The position numbers and the translations under genes were made by a program. A stretch of 64,000 bases of DNA from Enterobacteriaceae endosymbiont of Macroplea appendiculata (GTDB taxonomy: Bacteria > Pseudomonadota > Gammaproteobacteria > Enterobacterales > Enterobacteriaceae): the NCBI RefSeq assembly GCF_012571605.1, contig NZ_CP046220.1, positions 250,318-314,317 of the forward strand. The letters run 5' to 3'. Positions 159 through 57,217 of the stretch are shown piece after piece. Under the pieces are notes generated by a model. It was not told the origin of the DNA, did no database searches, and saw only the letters and a list, made by a program, of their open reading frames with translations. Position 1 is the first letter of the stretch, and every line of letters starts with the position of its first letter.

Positions 159-899
159 TTATATAGCTACATTACCACCAAAACGACGTTGTCTTTGACA
201 ATAATTTTCCAGTGCATGTAAAAAACATTTTTCATTAAAATCAGGCCATAATATATTAGTAAAATATAATTCCGCATAAGCAATTTGCCATATAAAAAAA
301 TTACTAATACGTATATTACCACCTGTACGTATAACTAAATCTATTGGTGGTACATCATGTAATGCTAAATATTTTGTAAAAGTTTTTTCAGTAATATCTT
401 GTATGGTAATTTTTTTTTTATATACTTGTTTAATAATATTTTTAATACCGTAAATAATATCACTTTTACCACCATAATTTATTGCTAAATTTACTATTAA
501 CACATGATTATGTTTAGTTAATTTTTCTGCTCTTATAATAGATTTTTGTAAATCAGTATCTAATACTGTTTTGTCTCCAATAACATTAATTTTAATTCTA
601 TATTTAATAAAATTATTAATTTCGTTATTTAAAATATATTTAAATAATTTCATAATAAATATTATTTCTGAAGGTGAACGTTTCCAATTTTCACTACTAA
701 AAGCATATAATGTTAAAACTTTTAACTTGTATTTTATACATGAATGAATAATTGTTTTTACTACATTAACACCAGCTTTGTGACCTATAATACCTTTTTT
801 ACCTTGTTTTTGTGCCCAACGCCTATTACCATCCATAATAATAGCAATATGTTGAGGACATTTTTTTTTATTTAAAATGTTTATTGCTTGCATATTCAT
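159..899 (-). CDS. uppS: Undecaprenyl diphosphate synthase
   Basis: UppS adds eight isopentenyl units in cis configuration to farnesyl diphosphate, making the C55 carrier lipid for peptidoglycan and other wall polymers. At 246 residues it is close to the E. coli length of 253. The catalytic Asp and phosphate-binding loop IIMDGNRRWA lie near residue 20, followed by GHKAG, SSENW (about residue 72) and the C-terminal RTGGNIRISNF and AELYF blocks with the conserved Arg residues that bind the isopentenyl diphosphate. It lies 13 bases downstream of dxr in the order frr-dxr-uppS-rseP, so it is probably cotranscribed. No strong SD precedes the ATG. All catalytic residues I know are present, which contrasts with the eroded DXR upstream. 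A run of 10 T (410-419) lies inside the gene. Confidence 0.97.
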   Translation of the reverse strand: MNMQAINILNKKKCPQHIAIIMDGNRRWAQKQGKKGIIGHKAGVNVVKTIIHSCIKYKLKVLTLYAFSSENWKRSPSEIIFIMKLFKYILNNEINNFIKYRIKINVIGDKTVLDTDLQKSIIRAEKLTKHNHVLIVNLAINYGGKSDIIYGIKNIIKQVYKKKITIQDITEKTFTKYLALHDVPPIDLVIRTGGNIRISNFFIWQIAYAELYFTNILWPDFNEKCFLHALENYCQRQRRFGGNVAI

Positions 900-912
900 A
901 TAATTTAAAGTA

Positions 913-2133
913 TTAATACTTAATGTTAATTTTATGTATATTACTATATTTTTTTTTTTTTATAAAATAATGCGTATATTGACGTACATAATTATCTATC
1001 CACAATACTTCATAAATATTTTTAGGCTTATTAAAAGATAATTTATCTAAAATAATACTATTTATATGAGCAATATCTATAAATGATATCTTTTTATTTA
1101 AACATAATTCAGTAGTAATATCATTAACTGCATTTAATATAATAAATGCCGATAATCCTTCATAACTAGCTTCTATTGCTAATTTTAAACATGGATATTT
1201 AATTAAATCTGGTTTTAAAAAAGTTAAGGATTGTATATCATAAAAATTTACTGGTTTATTATCAGTATTAATTTTATATGGCCATTCCAACATACTAGCA
1301 ATAGTAACTTGTATATTAGGATAATTTAATTTAGCATTAACACTATTATTTTTTAAACGTACCATTGCTGCAATAATAGATTCTGGATTAATAATAATTT
1401 CTATTTGCTCTTTTTTTGCATTAAATAAATATTTAGTAGCAATATATTCAAAACCTTGTGATATCATAGTAGACATATTAATCATATTTTTATGATTTAC
1501 AAAAGGTGTAGTTATACAAGATTTAATATCAATATATTTAAATTTTTCTATAGGTAAATATAAAAATAATCCTCCAGAACCAATTAAGATAATGCTATTA
1601 ATATCATTTTTATATAAGTTACATATACCCATTTTATTTTGTATATTATTCGGCATGAGCTCATAAATTGCACTATGACTATTGTTAATAGGTAAGATTT
1701 TCGCTTTAAATCTATATATATCTTTAATTAAGAGACTATGTATTATTATTAATAATTCTATACTAGTTAATAAAACTACTTTACTAGATTTAATCGCCTC
1801 TTTTATATATAAAAGTCCGATAATACTTTTAATAGTAATAATAATTTGATCAACATCATCTAAAGCTGTAATTTCTATTATTTTACGTTTACCAAATAAA
1901 ATTTTTGTTTTAATACCAATATTTTGTAAATTATTATGTAAAATTATAGCATGACTTTTTTTATACATAATTGCATAATCTGGATTAAATAATATACACT
2001 GTTTAATCATTAATTCAACATTATGTTTTGCTACTAAAACTTTAATTTTATATAAATTAGGATTAGTTAATATTACAGACAAAATATTACGTCCAAAATA
2101 TCCAGTAGAACCTAATATAGTTAGGTATTTCAT
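913..2133 (-). CDS. dxr: 1-deoxy-D-xylulose 5-phosphate reductoisomerase homologue with a degraded active site
   Basis: This is the DXR homologue by length (406 residues; E. coli 398), start LTILGSTG, the block CLKLAIEA near residue 315, and position between frr and uppS. DXR normally makes MEP, the first committed intermediate of bacterial isoprenoid synthesis. The active site is badly changed relative to E. coli. Metal ligands Asp150 and Glu152 in VDSEH are Asn150 and Ser152 (INNSH). Lys125 in ANKE is Ile (TSIE). His209 and Trp212 of HPNW are Thr and Val (TPFV). Asn227-Lys228 are Ser-Gln, with a two-residue deletion just before. Only the third ligand (E. coli Glu231, GFEYI here) and Ser186 (GSGG) remain. 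The frame is intact but a run of 13 T (949-961) near the C-terminus invites slippage. It may be a pseudogene in the making, an inactive protein, or repurposed. SD AGGATAAA precedes the start. Confidence 0.88.
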   Translation of the reverse strand: MKYLTILGSTGYFGRNILSVILTNPNLYKIKVLVAKHNVELMIKQCILFNPDYAIMYKKSHAIILHNNLQNIGIKTKILFGKRKIIEITALDDVDQIIITIKSIIGLLYIKEAIKSSKVVLLTSIELLIIIHSLLIKDIYRFKAKILPINNSHSAIYELMPNNIQNKMGICNLYKNDINSIILIGSGGLFLYLPIEKFKYIDIKSCITTPFVNHKNMINMSTMISQGFEYIATKYLFNAKKEQIEIIINPESIIAAMVRLKNNSVNAKLNYPNIQVTIASMLEWPYKINTDNKPVNFYDIQSLTFLKPDLIKYPCLKLAIEASYEGLSAFIILNAVNDITTELCLNKKISFIDIAHINSIILDKLSFNKPKNIYEVLWIDNYVRQYTHYFIKKKKYSNIHKINIKY

Positions 2134-2180: not shown

Positions 2181-2741
2181 TTAATATTGTAATATATCTT
2201 TTTCTTTTTGTTTTAAATAATTAGATATACATGTTATATAATGTACTGTATGTTTTTGAATGATATGTTGAAGTTTTTTTTCTACATTTTCACTAATTTC
2301 TTTATTTTTTAAATATAATTTGATTTTATTATTTGTTTTTCTTCGAATAGTACGTATGCAAATACGAAATAATTCCGTTTCTGTTTTAATTCTTTGTAAA
2401 AGTTTTATTTTCCGTGATTCAGTAATAATTGGCATAGTAATATAAATACTTAAATTTATAATTTGAGTACTAACATCTAAGTTAGCAGTTAAAATAGCTT
2501 TTTCAATATTTTTAATAATTTTTTTATCAAATGGTGTTACTTTTAACGTATTAACATTATGTACTATTATAGTGGCTATATGATGTATAGGTATTGTTTT
2601 ATTATATACAGAGGTAACTACAACATGTTCTAATAATTGAGGTGTGACTCTATTCATAGACATTATATTAATTTTATTTTTAAAATTATTAAAACATTGT
2701 TGCATACTTTGTTCATTATTTTTTATAATATCATTATACAT
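2181..2741 (-). CDS. frr: Ribosome recycling factor
   Basis: RRF acts with EF-G to split the post-termination ribosome. From the ATG at 2741 the protein has 186 residues (E. coli 185) and aligns from its first residue (MYNDI against MISDI). A GGA-containing SD lies about 9 bases upstream. A longer form from an ATG at 2771 is possible but lacks homology in its first ten residues. The C-terminal helix of domain I, including the Arg-Arg pair in IRTIRRKTNNKIK that contacts rRNA, is kept. The normally near-invariant RTGRASP segment is SMNRVTP here, and domain II is very divergent. The gene lies between pyrH and dxr, as in E. coli. Essential family, so probably functional despite fast evolution. 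Confidence 0.93.
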   Translation of the reverse strand: MYNDIIKNNEQSMQQCFNNFKNKINIMSMNRVTPQLLEHVVVTSVYNKTIPIHHIATIIVHNVNTLKVTPFDKKIIKNIEKAILTANLDVSTQIINLSIYITMPIITESRKIKLLQRIKTETELFRICIRTIRRKTNNKIKLYLKNKEISENVEKKLQHIIQKHTVHYITCISNYLKQKEKDILQY

Positions 2742-2784
2742 ATTTACATTTTCCAAATTGTGTTTTTCCATATATACAAAAGTT

Positions 2785-3531
2785 TTATATATTGGTAATT
2801 AATGTGCCTATTACCTCTCCTTTGATACTACATCCAGTAATAATTTGCTGTAAAAAACCTATTTTATTAATATTTAGAATGTGTATAGGTATATTCGCAT
2901 CTCGTGATAAAATAATAGAAGTATGATCCATAATATTTAATTGTCTATATAAAATAAAATTATAATCTATTTTTTTATAAAATTTAGCATGAGGAAATTT
3001 AATAGGATCTTGTGCAAACACTCCATTAACTTTAGTAATTTTAAAAATAGCATCAGCTTCTAATTCTATGCCTCTTAAACATGCTGCTGTATCAGTAGTA
3101 AATGCAGGACAACCAAGACCACCAACAAAAATAATAATATGATTATTTTTAATTAAATTTAATGCTTTAATAATATTATATTCATCACAAATATTTTTTA
3201 TAGCTACAGCAGACATAATGACAGTATTGATATTATGTAAATTCATTTGAGAACATAATAATAATCCGTTAATAATAGTCGATAATATACCAATATGATC
3301 TCCTAATACTGTTTTAATATTATTATTTTGTGCAAGTTTTTTACCTTTAAATATACTACCTCCGCCAATTACAATACCAATTTGTACACCTAATGGTATA
3401 ATATTTTTAATTACTGTAATAAAATTATTTATTAAATCATTATTGACATCTAAATAATTATCTTTTTGTAAAAAATCACCACTTATTTTTAATATTATTC
3501 TATTATAAATTATTTTTTTTTTAAGATTCAT
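2785..3531 (-). CDS. pyrH: Uridylate kinase (UMP kinase)
   Basis: PyrH phosphorylates UMP to UDP and belongs to the amino-acid kinase fold, not the NMP kinase fold. The 248-residue protein (E. coli 241) shows the phosphate loop LKISGDF near residue 15, the glycine-rich VIGGGSIFKG, GDHIG, the FTTDTAACLRGIELEAD block around residue 150 that binds UMP and ATP, and the C-terminal GTLITN. The Arg in the regulatory FRG segment is Lys, and E. coli GNPFFTTD reads GCPAFTTD. The order is rpsB-tsf-pyrH-frr as in E. coli, with 18 bases between it and tsf. Confidence 0.96.
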   Translation of the reverse strand: MNLKKKIIYNRIILKISGDFLQKDNYLDVNNDLINNFITVIKNIIPLGVQIGIVIGGGSIFKGKKLAQNNNIKTVLGDHIGILSTIINGLLLCSQMNLHNINTVIMSAVAIKNICDEYNIIKALNLIKNNHIIIFVGGLGCPAFTTDTAACLRGIELEADAIFKITKVNGVFAQDPIKFPHAKFYKKIDYNFILYRQLNIMDHTSIILSRDANIPIHILNINKIGFLQQIITGCSIKGEVIGTLITNI

Positions 3532-11092: not shown

Positions 11093-11905
11093 ATGTTAAT
11101 ACAATATAAGCTCTATAAAATCATGTTTTTAAGCATTATACAAGGTTTAACAGAATTTTTACCTATATCTTCTACAGCACATATTATTATATTATCCAAA
11201 TTATTTCATATATCATGTAATGATTTTTTCAAACTTTTTGTTACTGTTATACAACTAGGATCAATGATAGCAACATGTATATTTTTCAGAACAAATATTA
11301 TAGATATTTTAAATAATACTCTTAAATACAACATTATTACGAACAAAAAATTTAATTTAATACATATTATTCTTGTAACATTACCAATTGTAATATGTGG
11401 TTTATTTTTATATAAATATATTAAACATATTACAAATATTAAAAATATAATTTATGGTTTATTAATAGGTAGTATATTAATATGTCTAGCAGAAATATTT
11501 AAACCTAAAAATAATATTATATATTCTTTAAATAATATAAATTATCAGAAATTATATATTATTGGTTTAATGCAATGTTTATCTTTAATACCAGGTTTTT
11601 CCAGATCTGGTGCTGTATTGTCTATTAATTTATTATTAGGTATAAAACGTACTTTAGCAACTAAATTATGTTTTATAATGGCTATTCCAGTAATTTTAGG
11701 AGCAAGTTGTTTAGATTTATATAAAAATCACACATTACTTAACATTAATAATATATTACTATTATTTGAAAGTTTATTAGTATCATTTATTATTAGTTTA
11801 TTAACTATTAAAATATCTTTATTTTTAATTAATCATATATCATGGTTATATTTTGTTATTTATCGATTAATAATCTTAATAATTATATATATAAATTATA
11901 TATAA
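11093..11905 (+). CDS. uppP: Undecaprenyl-diphosphate phosphatase
   Basis: UppP (BacA) removes one phosphate from undecaprenyl diphosphate so the carrier lipid can be reloaded for wall synthesis. The protein is integral to the membrane, with 270 residues (E. coli 273). The two catalytic motifs are present: QGLTEFLPISSTAH, with the essential Glu of TEF at residue 21, and PGFSRSGAVLS near residue 168 with the Ser and Arg. The first Glu of the E. coli EGLTEF motif is Gln, a variant I recall in many functional family members. It follows tsaD by 27 bases (plsY and folB lost between) and ends 4 bases before the convergent cca. It complements UppS at 159-899. Confidence 0.96.
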   Translation: MLIQYKLYKIMFLSIIQGLTEFLPISSTAHIIILSKLFHISCNDFFKLFVTVIQLGSMIATCIFFRTNIIDILNNTLKYNIITNKKFNLIHIILVTLPIVICGLFLYKYIKHITNIKNIIYGLLIGSILICLAEIFKPKNNIIYSLNNINYQKLYIIGLMQCLSLIPGFSRSGAVLSINLLLGIKRTLATKLCFIMAIPVILGASCLDLYKNHTLLNINNILLLFESLLVSFIISLLTIKISLFLINHISWLYFVIYRLIILIIIYINYI

Positions 11906-36647: not shown

Positions 36648-36756
36648 TCTTATTGATGTAGAATTTAGTATTAAAATAAATACATAAACATTTTCTATAT
36701 CATAATAGTTATTATTTATATAGTAATTTTTATCATAAAATATGAGGTTTATAAAT

Positions 36757-37317
36757 ATGTCAGTTGTAATATTTTTATTTCGTAATGTAATTGATATCTT
36801 AATTTTAATGTTAATATTAAGAATATGGATTTTTTATACGATACAAAATACATATAATACTTTTGCGACATTTATTAATATGTTATCTAAACCAATAGTC
36901 CAACCTATTAAAACTTTTTTCCCTAATATAAAAAATATAGAATTATCGTCAATAATAATTTTAGTTGTATTAATTAATATTAAATATCCTATTTTAATGT
37001 TATTAAATACTAAAAATATACCATTTCATAATTTTATTACATTAATTTTTATTGGTTTCCTTGTATTATGTAAATCCTTAGGATATTTAATATTTTGGTT
37101 AATAACTATACGTTCTGTATTTAGTTGGTTTAATAGAAAATCTAATGACTTTGATTATATATTAATTGTTTTAACAAATCAAATAATACAACCAATACAA
37201 AAAATTATATTACCTATTGGTAATGTAGATATTACTCCATTTATTATTAGTTTAATGTTATATTGTATGAATTTTGTGGCTATGGATCTTTTCCCACAAT
37301 TATGGTTTATAATATAA
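36757..37317 (+). CDS. yggT: YggT family membrane protein
   Basis: YggT has two repeated YGGT domains, each with two membrane segments, and is linked to osmotic or envelope functions in E. coli; its molecular role is uncertain. The 186 residues (E. coli 188) show four hydrophobic segments, and each half contains the signature ending in PI-P-R/K-I (PIVQPIKTFFPNI and PIQKIILPIGNVDITPF). An ATG at 36742 is in frame, but GAGG at 36744-36747 is ideally placed for the ATG at 36757, so I use that start. The gene lies between ruvX and hemW, as yggT lies near hemW in E. coli with yggU and rdgB lost. Confidence 0.88.
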   Translation: MSVVIFLFRNVIDILILMLILRIWIFYTIQNTYNTFATFINMLSKPIVQPIKTFFPNIKNIELSSIIILVVLINIKYPILMLLNTKNIPFHNFITLIFIGFLVLCKSLGYLIFWLITIRSVFSWFNRKSNDFDYILIVLTNQIIQPIQKIILPIGNVDITPFIISLMLYCMNFVAMDLFPQLWFII

Positions 37318-55885: not shown

Positions 55886-57217
55886 TTAATGCATGCTAAC
55901 AAATGTAGCATATAAAGTATATAAATAAAAATTATTAATATATACCTTTACTATTTTACCGACACAATTATATGTACTTTTAAAAAAAACAATTCTATTA
56001 TTTTCTGTTTTACCAAAAAAAAATTGATTATGTTTAGATATTCCTTCTACTAAAACAGTTTGTATAGAATGTAACATATATGAACTAAATTTTTTTGTTT
56101 GTTGTTGGATATAATCTTGTAAAATATATAATCTGCGTTTTTTTTCTTGCAAACTAACATTATCTACCATTTTACTAGCAATAGTACCAGGTCTAGCAGA
56201 ATATATAAAACTATAACTCATATCAATATCCATATCTAGAATTAATTGTATAGTTTGATTAAAATCTTCTTGTGTTTCACCAGGAAACCCTACTATAAAA
56301 TCAGAACTAATATGTATATTAGGTCTTATTTTTTTTAGTTGGTATATAATATTTTTATATTGTGTTAAAGAATATCTTCGTTTCATTAAAGATAGAATTT
56401 TTTCTGAACCACTTTGTACGGGAAGATGCAAAAAATTTACTAACTGTGGTATTTTACCATATACATTAATTAAACCTTGAGTAAAATCTTGAGGATTGCT
56501 AGTAGTATATCTAATTCTATAGATACCTTTAATATTTGAAATCATAATTAATAACTTATCAAAGGTAATAATATTATTATCAATATCTATATATTTATAA
56601 GAATTAACATTTTGTCCTAATAAATGTATTTCTTTGATACCTTGAATAATTAATTGTTGTATTTCTAATAATATATCTTTATATGGTCTACTAATTTCTT
56701 TACCTCTTGTAAAAGGTACAATGCAATACGTACAATATTTATTACATCCTTCAATAATAGTAACATAAGAAGTATGTTGAGTAGTTTTAATAACTGGTAA
56801 ATAATTAAATTTTTCAGTTTTAGGAAAACTAATATCAATTAATTTTTTTTTAAAATTATATACATCTTGTATCATTTTTGGTAATCTATGTATTGTTTGA
56901 GGTCCAAAAATAATATCTACATAACTTGCTCTTTTAAAAATTTTCTCACCTTCTTGTGCAGCCACACAACCACCAACACATATAATAATATTAGGATTAT
57001 TTTGTTTAAAAATTTTCCATCTACCTAATTGATGAAATAACTTTTCTTGAGCTTTTTCTCTAATAGAACATGTATTTAATATAAATATGTTAGCATGTTT
57101 TGCTATTGTTACAATAGCAAAATTTAATTCTTTGTTGATGTAATGTGATAACTTGGTAGAATCATATGTATTCATTTGACAACCCCAAGTTTTAATATAT
57201 ACTTTATTGCGTGACAT
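55886..57217 (-). CDS. miaB: tRNA-2-methylthio-N6-dimethylallyladenosine synthase
   Basis: MiaB adds the methylthio group to i6A37 in tRNAs that read UNN codons. The 443 residues (E. coli 474) have three domains: the N-terminal UPF0004 domain with Cys in KTWGCQMNTYDS, LNTCSIREKAQEK and GGCVAAQEG; the radical SAM triad in GCNKYCTYCIVPFTRG; and HLPVQSGSEKIL, SSDFIVGFPGET; then a TRAM domain. About 30 C-terminal residues past TRAM are missing. Its substrate i6A needs dimethylallyl-PP from isoprenoid synthesis, relevant to the DXR problem at 913-2133. Confidence 0.97.
   Translation of the reverse strand: MSRNKVYIKTWGCQMNTYDSTKLSHYINKELNFAIVTIAKHANIFILNTCSIREKAQEKLFHQLGRWKIFKQNNPNIIICVGGCVAAQEGEKIFKRASYVDIIFGPQTIHRLPKMIQDVYNFKKKLIDISFPKTEKFNYLPVIKTTQHTSYVTIIEGCNKYCTYCIVPFTRGKEISRPYKDILLEIQQLIIQGIKEIHLLGQNVNSYKYIDIDNNIITFDKLLIMISNIKGIYRIRYTTSNPQDFTQGLINVYGKIPQLVNFLHLPVQSGSEKILSLMKRRYSLTQYKNIIYQLKKIRPNIHISSDFIVGFPGETQEDFNQTIQLILDMDIDMSYSFIYSARPGTIASKMVDNVSLQEKKRRLYILQDYIQQQTKKFSSYMLHSIQTVLVEGISKHNQFFFGKTENNRIVFFKSTYNCVGKIVKVYINNFYLYTLYATFVSMH

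Follow-up and report, generated by a model that had tools for sequence, protein, structure and literature searches.

In DXR, residues D150, E152 and E231 are described as holding the metal required for activity, S186, N227 and H209 as binding the phosphonate of fosmidomycin, and W212 as packing on the ligand in a pocket lined by M214 and M276 (PMC9782300). The isoprenoid precursors used by a bacterium can also come from outside: Rickettsia parkeri is described as obtaining them from its host cell (PMC6854040). Here, we analyzed a 64,000-nucleotide stretch of DNA (the window) from the symbiont of the reed beetle Macroplea appendiculata that encodes a DXR homologue without two of its three metal-binding acids. 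The genome of this symbiont has 472,781 bases in two contigs, one of 466,349 bases that carries the window and one of 6,432 bases, a replicon given as a plasmid of the symbiont in Table 1 of Reis et al. 2020 (PMC7289800).

The finding is a pseudoenzyme variant of the well-known DXR family. In a literature search whose coverage stopped short of subscription papers and supplements, we found no earlier report of a DXR pseudoenzyme, and the strings dxr and isopren have no occurrences in two reed-beetle papers. Three matches were set aside. The word pseudoenzyme in a reed-beetle expression paper belongs to a reference on beetle pectinases rather than to DXR, a match for dxr, endosymbiont and MEP concerns eukaryotic MEP genes by its title and abstract, and a match for uppS, endosymbiont and bacteriocyte concerns tick Coxiella.

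Results

A DXR homologue between frr and uppS lacks two metal ligands and most substrate contacts

The dxr gene lies in an operon between frr and uppS, with the following neighbors:

159..899, minus strand: uppS, undecaprenyl diphosphate synthase, the next gene downstream of dxr
913..2133, minus strand: dxr, ligand-less DXR homologue (putative pseudoenzyme) of 406 codons, called on homology, dN/dS and a structural model
2181..2771, minus strand: frr, ribosome recycling factor, the next gene upstream of dxr; selection control
2785..3531, minus strand: pyrH, a member of the amino acid kinase family identified as pyrH by operon position; selection control

The first-pass annotation of this DNA had described a complete frame of 406 codons, and the ORF listing and translation bear this out: the frame at 913-2133 is uninterrupted, on the minus strand. 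The encoded protein matches all three DXR Pfam domains (PF02670, PF08436 and PF13288), and E. coli DXR aligned with it nearly end to end (E 1.1e-84). Its closest database protein, among the best 120 of 419 matches, is 96% identical and comes from a Macroplea symbiont. However, the catalytic Pfam domain is weak, scoring 35.7 bits compared to 127 in a Dasytiphilus symbiont and 121 in Buchnera, both of which have intact ligands, and the protein falls under the cut-off of the NCBIfam DXR model TIGR00243 (295.3 vs 315.7 bits). Among the homologues from related symbionts, the Macroplea and Neohaemonia proteins are below this cut-off and the Plateumaris proteins are above it. The five Plateumaris proteins, themselves ligand-less, score 336-361 bits, and the cut-off of 315.7 alone would call them functional.

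Alignment with E. coli DXR, whose residue numbers are used here, revealed the substitutions K125I, D150N, S151N, E152S, H209T, S222M, N227S and K228Q, and placed W212 within a two-residue deletion in the flap. Among the contacts S151, S186, H209, W212, S222, N227 and K228, only S186 is retained, and the 148-156 loop contains no acidic residue. The first-pass annotation had already listed the changes at K125, D150, E152, H209, N227 and K228 and the retention of S186 and E231, all of which the alignment reproduces; its assignment of Val to position 212 was mistaken, as this residue is deleted. The relevant features are:

2092..2112, minus strand: Rossmann P-loop GSTGYFG, dxr codons 8-14, from the alignment
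1678..1686, minus strand: former metal/substrate loop, dxr codons 150-152, N-N-S in place of D-S-E, from the alignment
1495..1524, minus strand: former catalytic flap, dxr codons 204-213, two residues shorter than in E. coli
1447..1449, minus strand: Glu equivalent to E. coli E231, dxr codon 229, the sole metal ligand kept
955..1017, minus strand: last predicted helix, dxr codons 373-393, with W378, Y382, Y386 and Y389 invariant in the reed-beetle group

These losses are not a peculiarity of the window protein. An alignment with endosymbiont DXRs, suggested in the first-pass annotation, showed that D150, S151, E152, H209, W212 and K228 are lost in all eight dxr-bearing genomes of the genus, while E231 is kept. 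By contrast, D150, E152 and E231 are present in 175 of 175 other DXRs (E. coli, 157 database proteins and 17 loci, the database proteins being drawn from the best 120 of 419 and the best 120 of 415 listed matches). The full 11-residue signature is found in 173 of these, and the remaining two each differ at one site; further ligand-less DXRs may occur outside this set of 175. Loss of the ligands in eight of eight genomes and in none of 175 other proteins rules out chance or sequencing error. In the eight proteins, P-loop residues G8, S9, T10, G11 and G14 are conserved and S12 is replaced by Y throughout; E126, S186, G187, G188, K217 and E231 are also conserved in all eight. The H209 position, on the other hand, reads T, T, S, Y, Y, C, Q and K. 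Neohaemonia and four of the five Plateumaris proteins share the motif N150-K151-N152, which is therefore most simply ancestral, and the P. pusilla and P. sericea proteins carry a further change at H153 or E152. Finally, V102 and M276 are altered in all eight proteins and N124 in three. We take V102 and N124 to have roles in the NADPH site of DXR, and the changes at these three positions may weaken NADPH binding or alter the nicotinamide end. Judged by its sequence, the window protein fits the definition of a pseudoenzyme, an enzyme homologue without catalytic residues.

Within the genus, dxr was found in the symbionts of three host genera

Our sample of the symbiont genus comprised 24 genomes, covering 24 of the 26 published species (the symbionts of Donacia versicolorea and D. 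semicuprea are absent from the set). Profile searches identified dxr in eight of them, from two Macroplea, one Neohaemonia and five Plateumaris, and did not find it in the other 16, all of which are Donacia symbionts. In every bearer the dxr frame is open and uppS lies closely downstream. In the dxr-free genomes, a spacer of 43-91 bp separates frr from uppS in 15 cases, and one of 163 bp does so in the D. tomentosa symbiont. This longer spacer (L047 1293-1455, reverse) contains no recognisable dxr remnant (best tblastn E 3.6). A search of the genome contigs for related loci returned 41 pattern matches and no relative.

In the published host tree, as described, Plateumaris branches off first and Macroplea plus Neohaemonia forms the sister group of Donacia; the symbiont tree is reported to match this topology almost perfectly. 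Given this topology and the congruence of the trees, a single loss of dxr on the Donacia stem suffices. A three-gene tree, in which pyrH was missing for three genomes, unites the 16 dxr-free genomes, with an unsettled root and weak deep nodes (74 and 84). Separately, we observed that pyrH is missing from its usual place in the symbionts of D. clavipes and D. dentata: the few hundred bases between the elongation factor Ts gene and frr contain no open pyrH frame, unlike in a control locus.

Isoprenoid synthesis genes were not found and isoprenoid users are kept

The first-pass annotation had proposed a genome search for dxs and ispD-H. In profile searches whose controls matched as expected, none of these genes was found over cut-off in the 24 genomes. 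ispD, ispF, ispG and ispH were each found in 0 of 24. For dxs, all 24 genomes contain partial matches of at most 46 bits (vs 466), which we rejected: the one checked is a transketolase beside phosphoglycerate kinase, and the others were judged by their weak partial scores. Similarly, sub-cut-off matches to ispE in 19 of 24 genomes reach at most 38 bits (vs 139). The one that was checked is a GHMP kinase located between the threonine synthase and homoserine dehydrogenase genes, indicating that it is thrB, and the others are again weak partial matches. PF00348 prenyl synthases (the ispA/B family) and HMG-CoA reductase were likewise found in 0 of 24 genomes.

uppS and miaA exceeded their respective cut-offs in 24 of 24 genomes, and the window holds two more isoprenoid users:

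11093..11905, plus strand: uppP/bacA, undecaprenyl-diphosphate phosphatase, isoprenoid user
55886..57217, minus strand: miaB, isoprenoid (i6A) user

By profile match, UppS (159-899) and MiaB (55886-57217) are full-length members of their families, in agreement with the first-pass description of both as intact. Elsewhere in the window, a 191-residue ORF at 36742-37317 on the plus strand belongs to the YGGT family by Pfam (62.6 bits); it has no NCBIfam match and is flanked by a RuvX-family gene and a hemW-like gene.

Because no isoprenoid synthesis genes were found and uppS and miaA are kept throughout, IPP, DMAPP and FPP are probably supplied by the beetle host. Host supply and a new role for the protein had been posed as alternatives; the missing synthesis genes and retained users fit the former, the selection on a ligand-less DXR described below fits the latter, and the two fit together. 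A DRL-type replacement, a further suggestion, would be pointless, as dxs, ispD, ispE, ispF, ispG and ispH were not found in the 24 genomes. With the ligands lost in all eight bearers and searches for the pathway genes negative in all 24 genomes, the earlier view that the protein is probably dead for MEP synthesis gains support, and we regard it as very probably so. The contrary idea, a working DXR that uses other ligands in a pathway shared with the host, could draw on the full-length predicted DXR fold and the retained E231. However, it would have to operate with a 148-156 loop free of acidic residues, with no dxs to provide DXP and with no later MEP gene found in the 24 genomes. Insects are not known to have the MEP pathway, and we consider this idea scarcely credible.

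dxr is under purifying selection

We next consider how the gene has evolved. All omega values were calculated within genus only, and dS between genera is saturated. In the Macroplea pair, the dN/dS of dxr is 0.049 (2dlnL vs omega 1: 86.1), and the controls pyrH, frr and uppS gave 0.053, 0.079 and 0.055. For the five Plateumaris, a purpose-written codon likelihood on a fixed tree yielded 0.097 for dxr (2dlnL vs omega 1: 202.5) and 0.054, 0.140 and 0.120 for pyrH, frr and uppS. The N-terminal domain of DXR had an omega of 0.058 in Plateumaris and 0.014 in Macroplea. Between Macroplea and Neohaemonia, DXR is 68.6% identical, exceeding its three neighbors (64.5, 60.0 and 64.7%). When P. braccata is compared with either P. 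pusilla or P. sericea, by contrast, DXR identity is 84%, below that of the other three genes. Pairwise omegas for dxr in Plateumaris span 0.045-0.154, with those involving P. pusilla or P. sericea at 0.12-0.15. Constraint on dxr is looser in Plateumaris and selection is not uniform. Collectively, these values, which the first-pass annotation had suggested obtaining, indicate that dxr is under purifying selection comparable to that on pyrH, frr and uppS and is not decaying.

The lost ligands, the absence of dxr from 16 of 24 relatives and the drifting catalytic flap could be taken as signs of a slowly decaying pseudogene that is still open by chance. The omegas of 0.049 and 0.097, with 2dlnL values of 86.1 and 202.5 against 1, argue otherwise. 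Furthermore, in neutral simulations at matching dS an open frame survived in 0 of 2000 runs for the Macroplea pair and 0 of 1000 for the five Plateumaris; the real frame is open in eight of eight genomes. The five-taxon simulation used a tree with equal branches and the pair was run with extreme third-position base frequencies; a milder pair simulation at 22% GC also left 0 of 2000 frames open, with a mean of 15.7 stops. Decay is thus very improbable. Similarly, the closeness of uppS downstream in all eight bearers raises the idea that dxr is kept for a DNA or RNA reason, such as a promoter, transcript stability or translational coupling of uppS. Selection, however, acts on the protein (omega 0.05-0.10), and the 16 dxr-free genomes keep uppS after a spacer of 43-163 bp, making this explanation very improbable as well. 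Diversification of the reed-beetle hosts is placed at 75-100 million years by Reis et al. (PMC7289800).

Constraint has shifted away from the catalytic flap

Mean conservation among the eight ligand-less DXRs (0.69) is close to that of two sets of intact symbiont DXRs (0.71 and 0.71; eight sequences labelled Dasytiphilus and six Buchnera). However, conservation in the flap is 0.38 in the eight proteins compared to 0.82 and 0.80 in the intact sets, and for residues 31-60 it is 0.83 compared to 0.67 and 0.62. Per-site conservation in the eight correlates poorly with the intact sets (r 0.16 and 0.12), which correlate with each other at 0.47. At the eleven catalytic sites mean identity falls from 1.00 to 0.50, and none of 20,000 random eleven-site sets was as low. 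Only two segments stood out, the flap among the lowest 1.3% of windows and residues 31-60 among the highest 3.4%; the P-loop (16.8%), the C-terminal region (9.3%) and both metal stretches (11.9% and 19.6%) did not reach 5%. Forty positions, including Y12, W378, Y382, Y386 and Y389, carry a residue that all eight proteins share and that is rare among 122 other sequences, a pattern that may in part reflect the shared ancestry of the eight, for which the count has no control. AlphaFold2, from an input alignment of largely intact DXRs, predicted a confident DXR fold (pLDDT 91.8, pTM 0.90), and the closest solved structures to this model in Foldseek are DXRs (TM 0.93). The catalytic flap has thus been released from constraint, with the P-loop remaining invariant.

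The main rival to a non-catalytic role is a neofunctionalised enzyme that carries out NAD(P)H redox on a different substrate without the old metal site. Conservation of the P-loop and of E126, S186, G187, G188, K217 and E231 in eight of eight proteins, and the predicted DXR fold, are consistent with such an enzyme. Unlike an active site, however, the flap varies between species (identity 0.38, with a diverse H209 position). Reis et al. (PMC7289800), moreover, list no reductase missing from otherwise complete amino-acid pathways and describe a riboflavin pathway that misses just a dephosphorylation step. We consider a new catalytic activity unlikely. With an invariant P-loop, an N-terminal domain that is the most constrained and a substrate site that is drifting, binding of a nucleotide and a partner would be likelier than chemistry.

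Discussion

We propose that the ancestor of the reed-beetle symbionts would have lost the MEP pathway and taken isoprenoid precursors from the beetle. Its DXR would have lost metal and substrate binding, most simply via N150-K151-N152, and yet have been retained for another task. We infer that this task would be non-catalytic and use the nucleotide-binding domain, for example as a dimeric scaffold or sensor that would bind NADP(H) and might contact a partner through its N-terminal domain or through the Trp/Tyr helix near its C-terminus. The Donacia lineage, which lacks the gene, would have come to dispense with this task. The core of this model, that a dead DXR is kept for a role outside the MEP pathway, we hold with high confidence. 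The non-catalytic, nucleotide-binding mechanism is a suggestion drawn from patterns of conservation, about as doubtful as it is credible and leaning slightly to the doubtful side. Weighing core and mechanism together, we think it probable that an ancestral DXR pseudoenzyme was retained for work outside MEP synthesis, which might be that of a nucleotide-binding scaffold or a regulator. Several observations count against this reading: 16 of 24 relatives live without dxr, selection is looser in part of Plateumaris, the changes at V102, M276 and N124 may weaken NADPH binding, and neither the P-loop nor the C-terminal helix is significantly more conserved than other windows.

More tentatively, a central metabolic enzyme could here have become a regulator or structural partner that binds nucleotides without catalysis and has outlived its pathway by tens of millions of years, and such proteins could form a new functional class with the DXR fold. 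A regulator would be set in a genome smaller than half a megabase that has few transcription factors. Minimal genomes drop unneeded genes, so a dead enzyme under strong selection marks an unrecognised function. The genus offers a natural experiment, with eight genomes that have the protein and 16 that lack it on a common MEP-free background. In addition, the symbionts keep users of undecaprenyl and i6A with no isoprenoid synthesis found, which makes dependence on host isoprenoids testable. Finally, database annotation calls these ligand-less proteins DXR, and pathway reconstructions can misread them.

As described for Rickettsia (PMC6854040), the upstream MEP genes are gone and the downstream isoprenoid users stay. 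The reed-beetle symbionts differ from that account in also having no detected ispA/B-family synthase, in the persistence of an inactive DXR in a third of their genomes and in that host supply is inferred for them. NmrA-like proteins (PF05368) are NAD(P)-binding regulators. The Neohaemonia protein, alone among the five DXR proteins scanned with Pfam, matched this family over residues 2-117 through its GSTGYIG loop at 19.8 bits, below the cut-off of 27; with this score and an overall DXR fold we reject membership, and the likeness suggests at most a similar way of working. Compared to the E. coli type of DXR, the reed-beetle protein is without D150 and E152, most substrate contacts and the surrounding pathway, and it shares with that type its ancestry, full length, all three domains, a position between frr and uppS in the operon and the predicted fold.
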